A DNA stretch of 64,000 bases from Fragilariopsis cylindrus CCMP1102. Lineage: Eukaryota; Bacillariophyta; Bacillariophyceae; Bacillariales; Bacillariaceae. Position numbers and translations under genes: made by a program. Below, in pieces: positions 14,436 to 24,340 of this stretch; position 1 is the first letter of the stretch; each line of letters opens with the position of its first letter. The stretch spans positions 1-64,000 of the forward strand of contig FMBT01000479.1 of assembly GCA_900095095.1 (NCBI GenBank), given 5' to 3'. The notes below the pieces were generated by a model. That model was not told where the DNA came from. It saw nothing but the letters and a program-made list of their open reading frames with translations, and did no database searches.

Positions 14436-14451
14436 GGAGATTTTAATCTCC
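14436..14451 (+). promoter_or_regulatory. Histone 3' stem-loop (after H3 pseudogene) with downstream element
   Basis: GGAGATTTTAATCTCC forms a 6-bp stem with a UUUA loop, preceded by CAAACC and followed by ACATT. Seven bases after the stem is GAAACAGA (14459-14466). The sequence and spacing match those after the intact histone genes. Confidence 0.85.
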
Positions 14452-14839
14452 ACATTGTGAAACAGACAATTCATCATACATTACTTTGTGTACATACTTT
14501 TGATCGACTGTAGAGTAGCAAATATACTCTATATATTATATATTACAGTAAATTGTATTTTTAGTTTAACTAATTATTTATCTAAGCGCATCACAGCAAC
14601 GTTAAAATACTGTATCACGTGTTTCCATCCTGAGAATTGTTTATTTCTGCAGTAACAATAAGATACAACACGAATTTTATCATATCTCTCGAAGGCACAA
14701 ATTGACTACGATAACAACTCAATAATTACTATATGTAAGAAGATAATGAATAAATTACTACAATATGTAATGTGAAGGTGTACTTGTATCGCTCAGTGGA
14801 TATTTGGTTTTATGAATTGAATTTCTGTTTCAAAAATGT

Positions 14840-14855
14840 GGAGATTAAAATCTCC
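14840..14855 (-). promoter_or_regulatory. Histone 3' stem-loop of H2A with downstream element
   Basis: On the minus strand this is the same 16-nt hairpin, 72 bp past the H2A stop codon, preceded by ACAAACC. The purine core GAAACAGA follows after an 8-nt gap (14831-14824). It is likely to direct 3' processing of a non-polyadenylated histone mRNA, by analogy with the animal element. Confidence 0.88.
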
Positions 14856-14927
14856 GGTTTGTTTTTTTGTTCGTTATTGTTGTTGGGTTGCAAGTAGACT
14901 ACTGTAGTACAATGTAATACATTTTGT

Positions 14928-15466
14928 TTATTTCTTGACAGACTTCTTTGGAAGTAAGACAGCGTGGATGTTTGGTAGAACACCACCAGATGCAATAGTA
15001 ACACCACCCAAAAGTTTGTTCAGTTCTTCATCATTCTTCACAGCAAGTGTGATGTGACGTGGGACGATACGTGCCTTTTTGTTATCACGTGCAGCATTTC
15101 CAGCTAATTCCAAGATTTCAGCACATAGGTATTCCAAGACAGCAGCAAGGTAGACCGGTGCACCAGCTCCCATACGGGTTGCGTATTTTCCTTGACGTAA
15201 GTATCTTCCGATACGACCAACAGGGAATTGTAATCCTGCCTTAGCAGAACTAGTAGTTGACTTCTTTTCGCCACGACCTAACGTACGTCAAGATTAAAAT
15301 AAAGAAGAAAGGAAGGGAAAATATCGTTCGTTTCGTTAGAAAGAGACATGGCATGAATCGAATTAACAATTGTTTGTATCACGGAAGTGCATACATAGGG
15401 GACAAGGAAACAAGGCTAGTGTACAAGCAACAAATTTGACATACCTCCTTTTCCTTTTCCAGACAT
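14928..15466 (-). CDS. H2A: Histone H2A (canonical), two exons
   Basis: Core histone H2A, partner of H2B in the nucleosome. Exon 1 (15466-15445, 22 nt) encodes MSGKGKG plus one base. A 167-nt intron (GTATGT...TTAG) follows, then exon 2 (15277-14928), giving 123 residues. The histone fold is complete: [20 protein letters not shown], then [20 protein letters not shown], then [20 protein letters not shown] with DEELNKLL, and [13 protein letters not shown] near the end. The tail ends KSVKK with no SQ motif, so this is not H2A.X, and it lacks H2A.Z features. It is divergently transcribed from H2B with 482 bp between the start codons. Its mRNA 3' end carries the conserved hairpin. An intron in a core histone with this kind of 3' end is unusual. 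Confidence 0.97.
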
Positions 15467-15948
15467 GATGTTAGTTTTTATTTGATTTAAGTTAAAATAT
15501 TGATTTTGTGAGAGTGAACGAAGTGGAAGTAGTAGGTGCTGTTTTCGAAGAGAGCGAGAGAGAGAATTGGAGTGCATAATTTGTATCGTGCGTTTTCATC
15601 CACAGTCTCGTTTCCAAATTGCCGCGCCAGGAATTTTTATCGAAAAAAAAAACTCGTGTTAACCGCGCCAGGAATTGAAACGCCTGCCATACTCGAAAAA
15701 ATTCTCCTTCACAACACCGCGTTGTCTCGCTCACTTTGCGTAACAAACGCGATTGAATTGAACATAATGTAGCGCGGCTAGTTGATACTAATACTGTATG
15801 AAAAAACAAACGTGTTAAACCCGCGACAACACGCGTGAAAGCACGAAAATCAAATGACATGAAAAAAAACAAGAGAAAAGAAAACATCGAGAAATCAATA
15901 CGTTCAGCTCACAATTTTTTTCAAACTCGAAAAATATAATATCCCAAA
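15467..15948. promoter_or_regulatory. Shared divergent H2A/H2B promoter
   Basis: The 482-bp spacer contains two exact copies of CCGCGCCAGGAATT (15622-15635 and 15663-15676, 41 bp apart). A close match, CTGCGCCAGGATTT, lies in the H3/H4 promoter at 22467-22480. The GCGCC core resembles E2F-type sites. Several further GCG/CGC-rich patches (GCGCGGCTAG, CCCGCGACAACACGCG) lie between 15771 and 15835 in otherwise AT-rich DNA. Coordinated S-phase control is an inference. Confidence 0.6.
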
Positions 15949-21754: not shown

Positions 21755-22165
21755 TTAAGAACGTTCACCACGGATACGACGGGCTAGTTGAATATCCTTA
21801 GGCATGATGGTAACACGCTTGGCATGGATAGCACAAAGATTGGTATCTTCAAAGAGACCAACAAGGTATGCTTCAGCAGCTTCTTGAAGAGCCAAGACAG
21901 CAGATCCTTGGAATCGAAGATCACTCTTGAAATCTTGTGCGATTTCACGGACAAGACGTTGGAATGGAAGCTTTCGGATCAAAAGATCAGTCGATTTTTG
22001 GTATCGACGGATTTCTCGAAGAGCGACGGTTCCTGGTCTGTATCTGTGAGGCTTCTTGACTCCTCCAGTGGCTGGTGCAGACTTACGGGCAGCCTTGGTA
22101 GCAAGTTGCTTACGTGGAGCTTTTCCTCCAGTAGACTTACGGGCGGTTTGTTTGGTACGGGCCAT
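21755..22165 (-). CDS. H3: Histone H3 (H3.1-like), intronless
   Basis: Core histone H3, 136 residues including Met. The start is the ATG at 22165 ([20 protein letters not shown]). The frame stays open 33 codons further upstream, but the extension ([10 protein letters not shown]...) is not histone and is 5' leader. K4, K9, K14 and K27 are present. The sequence reads [13 protein letters not shown] and SAVLALQEA, so residue 31 is Ala and the 87-90 block is SAVL. This is close to replication-dependent H3.1/H3.2 and unlike H3.3 (S31, AAIG). It ends RRIRGERS. It shares an 805-bp divergent promoter with H4. Confidence 0.97.
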
Positions 22166-22970
22166 TTTGATTGATTGTTTGATAAATTTGGTTTCTATAA
22201 AAATTATTTTTATGAGAGTTAATGGCGATAGCGACTGATTACGTGTACGATGTTGTTGTTTCACGTTTCACAAAAGAAAGCATCCTTCTTACTTTTCTTT
22301 TTCTTCCATCGAGAGTGCGAATAGAAGAAAAACACGCACGTCAAACCTTTTTTTTGCTTTTTCAAAAAAAAATGGGCGCGGTGACCTGCGCCCATTATTT
22401 ATAGTGAAATTAGTTAATATTAAGGTAAGGTTTTGGTAAAAGCGCTCTGAACATATGGCGCACGAGCTGCGCCAGGATTTATTTCGAGAGACCTCGAATA
22501 TATTTATTTTTAAGGCGATTCTTGCTCTCTTCGTCACAAGCACGACTTCGAATTACGCGTAGCGTCTACTTAGAAACTATCTATCGCGTAACGCACGCCT
22601 GAAGTGAATACTTTAAAAAAGAGCAGCACAGAATTTCGAAACAGAAAAAAGAGTAAACATCACCGTTACAATCATAAAATCAAAAAGTAAGTGAATCAAA
22701 ATGAAAATGAAAATGAGTGTCGTATACATACACCACATCACGATGTACAAAGTATAAGTACGAAGTACTAGCACTCGAAGTTCTACCTTGATTCTTGCCA
22801 GTATCTTTCCCCTGCTCAGAGAAGTGCGGCAGACGTTTGTCGTGTAACGAACGAACAGTCGTTCGTTCTAAGTTTAAATATTCTAAGTACAACATACTCA
22901 CACTATCGTCTTCTTCTTTCTATCTCTCTTTCAGGATTTTTATATACCAAATAAATTAAACTAATTAATC
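22166..22970. promoter_or_regulatory. Shared divergent H3/H4 promoter
   Basis: An 805-bp spacer. A perfect 8-bp inverted repeat with an 8-nt loop (ATGGGCGC GGTGACCT GCGCCCAT) lies at 22372-22395, and the motif CTGCGCCAGGATTT at 22467-22480, shared with the H2A/H2B promoter. GC-rich CpG patches (TTACGCGTAGCG, TATCGCGTAACGCACG) follow at 22554-22600. Toward H4 there is a pyrimidine run (CTTTCTATCTCTCTTTCAG, about 22916-22934) ending in a possible 3' splice site, so a 5' UTR intron in H4 is possible. Confidence 0.55.
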
Positions 22971-23283
22971 ATGTCTGGTCGCGGAAAAGGAGGAAAAGGT
23001 CTAGGAAAGGGTGGGAGCCAAGCGTCATAGAAAGGTTCTTCGTGACAATATCCAAGGTATTACCAAGCCTGCTATCCGTCGTCTTGCGCGTCGAGGTGGT
23101 GTCAAACGTATCTCTGGACTTATCTACGAAGAAACCCGTGGTGTTCTTAAGGTCTTCCTTGAGAATGTTATCCGTGATTCTGTCACATACACCGAACACG
23201 CCCGTCGTAAGACAGTTACTGCCATGGACGTTGTTTATGCCTTGAAGCGTCAAGGAAAGACTCTTTACGGATTCGGTGGTTAA
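22971..23283 (+). CDS. H4: Histone H4, with a one-base frame change near codon 15
   Basis: Core histone H4. The ATG at 22971 opens [15 protein letters not shown], then the frame breaks. GGTGGGAGCC occurs where GGTGGAGCC would give GGAKRHRK, so there is one extra G within 23012-23015. From there the sequence encodes the remaining ~88 residues perfectly ([20 protein letters not shown], then [20 protein letters not shown], ending [11 protein letters not shown]). Because H4 is nearly invariant and the rest is intact, with an intact 3' hairpin, an assembly or sequencing insertion is the likeliest cause. A recent null allele is the alternative. It is divergent from H3. Confidence 0.93.
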
Positions 23284-23358
23284 ACAGCGTTCACACGTTG
23301 TTTAGCTATTGCACTTTCTGTAGGAAGATCGTTAATAACAAAAACAAAAAAACAAACC

Positions 23359-23374
23359 GGAGATTTTAATCTCC
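23359..23374 (+). promoter_or_regulatory. Histone 3' stem-loop of H4 with downstream element
   Basis: GGAGATTTTAATCTCC lies 75 bp past the H4 stop codon, with AACAAACC before it and ACATT after it. GAAACAGA begins 7 nt after the stem (23382-23389). Confidence 0.9.
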
Positions 23375-24340
23375 ACATTTTGAAACAGAAATTCAAGGAT
23401 TAATTTCATTCATACATTTACTGTTCGTTAATTTACCACGATAATATTCTCGTACATTGTATAATACCGTACATAATCAATCCATTTTTCTCTTTTATTA
23501 TCTATACATTAAAGCTTCTCTATTTCAAACTTTGAATTATGTGCTATAATATCCATACTAATCCATACGACGTATCTTACGAATGATTGTACTAGCAAGA
23601 TGACCAAATTATTGTATGTACAGTAACAGTAGTAACAAATCAATTTCTTCCTTTCTTTAGTTCTCTATTTATCTCTTTTTTTCATGTGTGAGTTACTAGC
23701 ATGTGCTCCATTGCTTCGCTTCTCATTTTGATATATGGTGTGTAATTGGAAACTCACCCAGTATTGTAGCTATGTTTAATCTGATCATATTGTGAGATCA
23801 GCTGCACGAAAGTTAAACTTTGATGATGCTGCACGAAAGTTAAACTTTGATGATGAACCACATGGTGAACTTTCCGGCATACTGTATAGAATAGCATATC
23901 ATCCAATCCCATCTGCAAATTTAGTCGGCACAAGCAAAATAGCTCGCTAGGTATGCCCCGTCTTTTTTACGACATACTGCACTAGCGGAGTTAGAAAGCA
24001 GCTACATACATTGTATACAGAATTGTAGGTTTAATAGACAATATGTTTTTTTACTCTTCGTCGGTTTAGCTTCACTATTTCGTATTATTTAAAATGAGAT
24101 TTTACACTTTTGAAGACGGAAAGGTTCTAGCAAATTAATGATTGCATGCTTTTATCGTTTGTACTCTATACCGGCTCGTCATCTCATTCACTATAAACTT
24201 CAAATCAAACCGTGACGTTCTCTGTGTAGACAGCATTGTTTTATTTCGTTCACTGAATGATTCTTTCTGTACTACTATTATCAACTGCGCTCTATGATCC
24301 TATACAAAGATACGTATAGCATTTTCTTTTTCAGTCAAGA
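23375..24340. other. Intergenic region, H4 to fibrillin
   Basis: About 0.95 kb between convergent gene ends, AT-rich, with one tandem 27-bp duplication (23801-23854). No gene is supported. Confidence 0.5.
23801..23854. repeat. Tandem duplication of a 27-bp unit
   Basis: Two exact adjacent copies of a unit starting GCTGCACGAAAGTTAAACTT and ending TGATGAT lie at 23801-23827 and 23828-23854. Each contains a near-palindrome, AAAGTTAAACTTT. Function unknown. Confidence 0.85.

Follow-up and report, generated by a model that had tools for sequence, protein, structure and literature searches.

The 64-kb window examined here (the whole 64,000-nucleotide stretch at positions 1 to 64,000 of contig FMBT01000479.1 from the diatom Fragilariopsis cylindrus CCMP1102) carries core histone genes followed by an RNA hairpin and, a few nucleotides further on, a short purine-rich downstream element. 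This arrangement is shared by core histone genes throughout the genome, and the two elements probably serve as their 3′-end processing signals, with cleavage directed by SLBP and a U7-type small nuclear ribonucleoprotein (snRNP). In the proposed mechanism, SLBP would bind the hairpin, and the downstream element would be bound by a U7-type snRNP whose ring would include LSm11 (perhaps also LSm10) and whose RNA could pair through its 5′ end with (U)GAAACAG(A). A CPSF73-type nuclease would then cleave the pre-mRNA within the short interval that separates hairpin from element, yielding a histone mRNA that would end just past the hairpin and lack poly(A).

All five hairpin sites in the window lie 3′ of a core histone gene or gene fragment, and the positions and spacings given in an earlier annotation made from the letters alone (the sequence-only reading) hold. 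The sites, all located by pattern scan and, for the H3-fragment and H2B hairpins, also listed by fold, are as follows.

14436..14451, plus strand: hairpin 3′ of the H3 fragment
14459..14466, plus strand: downstream element of the H3 fragment, GAAACAGA
14840..14855, minus strand: hairpin 3′ of H2A
14824..14831, minus strand: downstream element of H2A, GAAACAGA, 8 nt past the hairpin
16583..16598, plus strand: hairpin 3′ of H2B, with a C-to-T change giving a G-U pair
16606..16613, plus strand: downstream element of H2B, TAAACAGA
21676..21691, minus strand: hairpin 3′ of H3
21661..21668, minus strand: downstream element of H3, GAAACAGA
23359..23374, plus strand: hairpin 3′ of H4
23382..23389, plus strand: downstream element of H4, GAAACAGA

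The 16-nt hairpin, GGAGAUUUUAAUYUCC, folds in each of the five copies into a 6-bp stem with a 4-nt UUUA loop, as had been claimed, and the C-to-T change described earlier, which keeps a G-U pair in the H2B stem, was seen at 16583–16598. The motif is nearly self-complementary, so that the five sites give 10 pattern matches, compared with a chance mean of 0.73 and a highest value of 5 among 100 shuffles of the window at up to three mismatches. The octamer (G/T)AAACAGA begins 7 nt past the hairpin (8 nt in H2A). By count it is not enriched in the window (8 observed versus 7.7 expected), and five of the eight copies sit at the hairpin spacing; its significance is one of position, not of count. The window hairpins are preceded by AAACC and followed by ACATT. 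Of the longer flanks described earlier, CAAACC in front is present genome-wide at 27/31 sites and ACATT behind at 29/31, the invariant parts being AAACC and ACA (31/31 each).

A scan of the genome assembly (67.9 Mb, 818 contigs) with a 23-nt version of the hairpin, allowing up to three mismatches, identified 31 sites, 28 of them exact and three with the C-to-T (G-U) change; the reversed control pattern gave 0. Every site lies 3′ of a core histone gene, as typed by protein signatures within 420 nt upstream of the hairpin: eight H2A, eight H2B, eight H3 (one a fragment), and seven H4, with none unassigned and with no hairpin found beyond these core-histone sites in the three-mismatch scan. The 31 sites include both haplotypes and comprise 26 distinct 40-nt flanks; they are not 31 independent events, and independent genes are fewer. 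AACAG lies 9, 10, or 11 nt downstream of the hairpin in all 31 flanks, and AAACAG occurs at that spacing in 30; the remaining flank, that of an H2B copy, reads GAACAG. AAACAG is absent from +25 to +120 of all 31 flanks, and 300 rounds of dinucleotide-preserving shuffling of the same flanks placed it at this spacing in a mean of 0.1 and a maximum of 2 of the 31. With gene types weighted equally, information content reaches 2.0 bits per column across AACAG and, once the second base beyond it is reached, no longer exceeds 0.87. The observation made in the window, hairpin together with element, is thus confirmed and extends genome-wide. Among viral contigs the hairpin with ACA had 0 matches, and neither these nor the prokaryote genome contigs, the two collections that were scanned, yielded a second species carrying the element. 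One prokaryote contig (titled Desulfobacterales, L131) matched hairpin plus ACA; with no histone among its 14 listed open reading frames (ORFs), it was taken as a chance match.

A histone-family scan of the genome returned 41 matches, 24 of which correspond by place to the hairpin-bearing H2A, H2B, and H3 loci; H4 loci were not among the 41 and were labelled by signature instead. Ten further loci were examined and seven weaker histone-fold matches were left out. Named from their sequence, the ten comprise six H3-type loci (three genes in two copies each, one CenH3-like), one H2A.Z-like locus, one other H2A-like locus, and two NF-YC-like copies. At all eight variant histone loci (judged variant from sequence, not expression), the flanks examined lack both AAACAG and any hairpin shaped like this one, in keeping with absence from replication-independent variant genes. 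The two NF-YC-like copies, which are not histones, have no hairpin but contain AAACAG at +45 and +501. The element is genuine, keeps a fixed spacing, and among the histone genes examined was seen solely with canonical ones.

The proteins that would read these signals were sought in the same genome. The SLBP homologue that the sequence-only reading had proposed to look for is represented by its RNA-binding domain (SLBP_RNA_bind, PF15247), for which two contigs score 58.6 and 51 bits, above the Pfam cut-off of 27; another match falls short of that cut-off with 16.4 bits, and 0 of 14 control genomes match. The two contigs carry nearly identical sequence and are read as haplotypes of one gene, and SLBP chains were the top matches in a PDB search (E values of 1.9e-4 and weaker).

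For the Sm/LSm family, 27 genome matches were obtained at E ≤0.5, and 20 regions covering 21 of them were examined, the other six being score-identical to examined ones. Read across introns, each of the 15 canonical classes (SmB, D1, D2, D3, E, F, G, and LSm1–8) has its own best-scoring counterpart, with narrow margins for LSm1 and for the second SmD3 assignment; there are two SmD3-like proteins (L091 and L097). Two Sm proteins are left over beyond the canonical set, L095/L130 and L093/L094. L095/L130 is a 432-codon open frame with a long N-terminal extension and an insert between its Sm motifs, and its Sm1 motif and following block match LSm11. Its top four PDB matches are LSm11 chains (E values of 3.5e-6 to 1.2e-5), followed by LSm3 (3.8e-5), with SmD2 at 0.015. 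Compared with 17 human references after removal of inserts, it scores best with LSm11 (z = 14.2; next SmE, 10.0), and in a tree it is grouped with human LSm11 and the two SmD2 proteins with moderate support (90/84), the genome's own SmD2 pairing with human SmD2 (97/98). These comparisons suggest that L095/L130 is an LSm11-like protein, whose best match among solved structures is, by a small margin, LSm11 of the U7 snRNP. Ahead of its LSm domain, L130 has a helical-looking N-terminal block (LRMRLEAYYSL...KLAKKYG) that is absent from human LSm11 by eye and has no Pfam match over the cut-off.

The second protein, L093/L094, is probably represented by two haplotypes and could be LSm10. In the tree it is placed in the half that holds SmD1, SmD3, LSm2, LSm4, and LSm10, with no resolved partner; by eye, its stretch IRYMHFPDNANLSS resembles VRYVHIPDDVNITS of LSm10, and total scores do not favour LSm10. 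The suggested search for Lsm10 and Lsm11 therefore succeeded for an LSm11-like protein, by PDB match, z-score, and tree, and gave for LSm10 a candidate that LSm10 does not match best.

Several observations weigh against processing by SLBP and a U7-type snRNP. The lead of LSm11 over LSm3 in the PDB search with L095/L130 is only ~3 bits, and the tree contains no exclusive grouping of L095 with human LSm11, SmD2 not being set apart. Neither an FDP stretch in the L095 N-terminus (155/2000 shuffles equally good) nor its resemblance to the CPSF73-contacting helix of LSm11 (120/2000 shuffles) is significant. For L093, LSm4 (6.7e-6) and SmD3 (7.4e-6) stand far above LSm10 (0.0025) in the PDB search, and other human references score equal to or above LSm10. 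The Rfam histone stem-loop has no match at E ≤5 in positions 13000–25000 of the window. H2A and H2B carry introns, unlike their animal counterparts, which are intronless according to the available part of PMC5636114, and so the intronless state of U7-dependent genes does not hold here.

Also among these points is the outcome of the search for the RNA itself: no convincing U7-like RNA was found in four genome pattern scans and 110 loci around their matches (L024–L053, L058–L077, L108–L127, L132–L151, and L152–L171), a scope that excludes UUGUUUY 5′ ends and the Rfam U7 model. The small Sm-type RNA with a complementary 5′ stretch that the sequence-only reading had called for was thus not identified by these (incomplete) scans. 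The pattern TCTGTTTC with AATTTNT gave 146 matches (reversed control, 59; 100 of 146 listed), CTGTTT with AATTTGTC gave 35 (control, 21; all listed), CTGTTTYA with ATTTNTS gave 171 (control, 92; 100 of 171 listed, none examined on its own account), and TCTGTTTC with RATTTNTS gave 75 (control, 23; all listed). The excess over the reversed control was not taken as evidence because this control does not preserve dinucleotide composition. In the examined loci, 92 distinct TCTGTTTC sites were scored for a hairpin past the Sm-like site, and the histone clusters and a few other loci were also scanned. The best folds looked coding, repeat-like, or weak on inspection; in one of the rejected candidates, L111, the sequence CTGTTTTAATTTGTC appears to be protein-coding on the opposite strand. 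A lone match, C651:200811-200832 (minus strand), has the full 12-nt complement TCTGTTTCAAAA ahead of a GATTTTTG site. No long open frame crosses it, and no second copy occurs among the 75 listed matches of its scan; its 3′ hairpin is weak, it has no apparent promoter likeness to U2 or U4, and by rough estimate ~0.6 such full-complement matches are expected among those 75. L132 is regarded as a weak lead only, and the outcome of the scans neither supports nor excludes a U7 RNA.

Spliceosomal RNA genes were recorded in the course of this search. U2 has six genome matches and U4 has one above and one below the cut-off, with no promoter motif apparent as common to U2 and U4 genes; U5 has no match in the genome, a null that does not show absence. 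The U2 genes are paired ~4.5 kb apart on both C173 and C221 (G000; L054, L055, and L057), and a long C run lies immediately 3′ of the U2 gene in the copies read.

The lack of an established U7 candidate in the genome scans lends some weight to a different possibility, tentative at best, in which SLBP-type hairpin processing proceeds without a U7-like RNA, AAACAG is read directly by a protein or by cleavage factors, and the LSm11-like protein acts elsewhere. A hairpin with SLBP has been reported in protists (available parts of PMC12819152 and PMC6723414), and the strongly conserved core of 5–8 nt is short compared with the ~15 nt paired by animal U7 (PMC7026596, in part). This possibility is countered by the presence, in the same genome, of an additional SmD2-class protein with LSm11 as its best match and by the near-fixed short spacing, such as a base-paired particle acting as a ruler would produce.

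It is also improbable that histone-type cleavage is absent, with the hairpin acting in the stability or translation of polyadenylated mRNAs and AAACAG belonging to a signal for poly(A) addition or termination. AATAAA does occur within 200 nt past the hairpin in 7/31 flanks, which counts for such an arrangement and against cleavage guided by SLBP and a U7-type snRNP; however, 24/31 flanks lack it, the examined variant histone loci lack hairpin and element, and within the 120-nt flanks AAACAG occurs solely beside the hairpin. Recent duplication or gene conversion, by which the tails would be alike as young copies and need not function, is very improbable: although many of the 31 sites represent haplotypes or near-copies, leaving 26 distinct flanks, and the window H3 and H4 tails are identical across 45 nt, one tail is common to four gene types, and identity falls from 86% in the element window to 30% in the sequence beyond between gene types (360 pairs), therefore not reflecting merely recent copying of whole flanks, and from 90% to 36% within gene types (105 pairs).

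Processing by SLBP and a U7-type snRNP has a precedent in animals, where the hairpin is held by SLBP, the downstream element is base-paired by U7, and CPSF73 cuts between them (PMC12774660 and PMC7026596, in part); in 2019 the U7 snRNP was called metazoan-specific (PMC7026596, in part). The diatom resembles this metazoan replication-dependent system in its 6-bp stem and 4-nt loop, in a purine-rich element at a near-fixed short distance, in the restriction of both to core histone genes rather than the examined variants, and in encoding SLBP and an LSm11-like protein. The animal hairpin consensus is GGYYYU...ARRRCC, whereas the 5′ stem arm of the alga is the purine-rich GGAGAU, and the gap between hairpin and element is shorter here than in vertebrates. 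The animal-type 3′ ends inferred by the sequence-only reading are thus partly supported, namely by the SLBP domain, the LSm11-like protein, and the spaced element; the systems differ in that a U7 RNA was not found in the scans and LSm10 is present only as a candidate. The odds appear even that the histone mRNAs of this heterokont-like alga are processed by a complete U7-type snRNP, made up of an LSm10/LSm11 ring and a U7-like RNA that pairs with GAAACAGA; if they are, the U7 machine would not be an animal invention but would have been present in a deep eukaryotic ancestor, as is supposed for hairpin and SLBP, and the animal-type cutting machine may be older than animals.

Histone stem-loops and SLBP were reportedly surveyed across protists by Davila Lopez and Samuelsson in 2008. 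Beyond the protist combination of stem-loop and SLBP, the alga has a downstream element at strict spacing and an Sm protein resembling LSm11, either of which the 2008 survey may already report. Chlamydomonas and Volvox have histone 3′ palindromes and introns, and the diatom is like these green algae in having a hairpin 3′ of histone genes, some with introns; we know of no U7-type downstream element in their histone genes. A histone stem-loop and SLBP are also described in Perkinsus (PMC6723414, in part), which likewise places hairpin and SLBP outside animals. That much is already known, and what would be new is the combination of a U7-type element with an LSm11-like protein: the open-access titles and abstract openings listed contained no report of U7, LSm10, or LSm11 in an alga, and none for diatoms or stramenopiles (a prior description being possible), nor a paper joining diatoms with SLBP, histone, and stem-loop or with Lsm10 and Lsm11. 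With an element of animal-like geometry and an LSm11-like protein both occurring in an alga, the age of the U7 machine can be tested directly. Their occurrence specifies exactly which RNA to seek and would account for the placing of the cut in a protist that has hairpin and SLBP; if the mechanism is true, canonical histone mRNA would be under-counted in the alga's poly(A)-selected transcriptomes.

The histone genes to which the window hairpins belong are listed below, with the basis of each assignment.

14199..14300, plus strand: truncated H3 gene, C-terminal histone-fold piece alone (PF00125 match)
14928..15466, minus strand: H2A gene, exon 1 at ~15445–15466, intron, exon 2 at ~14928–15277 (PF00125; ATG and splice donor by pattern; exon limits by eye)
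15949..16483, plus strand: H2B gene, ATG with an intron right after it, exon 2 from ~16121 (PF00125 and pattern; limits by eye)
21755..22165, minus strand: H3 gene, intact open frame (ORF list, PF00125 and Pfam)
22971..23283, plus strand: H4 gene, frameshifted as assembled (comparison with six other H4 copies)

The earlier description of four intact histone genes and an H3 pseudogene is correct as to the intact H3 frame and the truncated H3 fragment and fails for H4, the frame of which is broken by one additional G near 23013–23015 that is absent from all six other H4 copies. Since the frame of one SLBP copy is likewise broken relative to the other (by eye), an error of assembly and a pseudogene are equally likely here. 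The introns of the window lie directly past the ATG in H2B (15952–16120) and after seven codons in H2A (15278–15444), both of which are stem-loop histone genes. By a strict pattern, introns at or near the ATG are present in 4/8 H2A and 4/8 H2B genes of the genome; the remaining copies did not fit the pattern.

Fourteen of the 18 regions examined upstream of histone genes (450 nt before H2A, H3, and H4 starts; seven H4, seven H3, and four H2A) contain the motif GCGCCAGG, whose density is 2.3 per kb there and 0.03 per kb in 30 pieces taken from elsewhere in the genome. The regions were taken from L013–L016, L018, L019, L022, and the window, and some are common to head-to-head genes and so not independent. 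Doublets of H3–H4 and of H2A–H2B have also been described in the diatom Phaeodactylum (PMC4504042, in part). A 65-bp unit is repeated in three copies (99% matches) 3′ of H2B, at 16784–16978, and an intron-bearing methylmalonyl-CoA mutase gene lies amid the histone genes at 17969–20979 (PF01642 and B12-binding domains on two exons; limits by eye).

Elsewhere in the window, two kinds of feature suggest an alga of heterokont type and not an animal. Pfam matches include a trigger-factor N-domain and PAP_fibrillin, both slightly below the cut-off. Five frames (12999–13877, 24882–25664, 28569–28883, 40176–41375, and 57152–58000) begin, by eye, with a signal-peptide-like start followed by S or A and F, the pattern of proteins sent to secondary red plastids.

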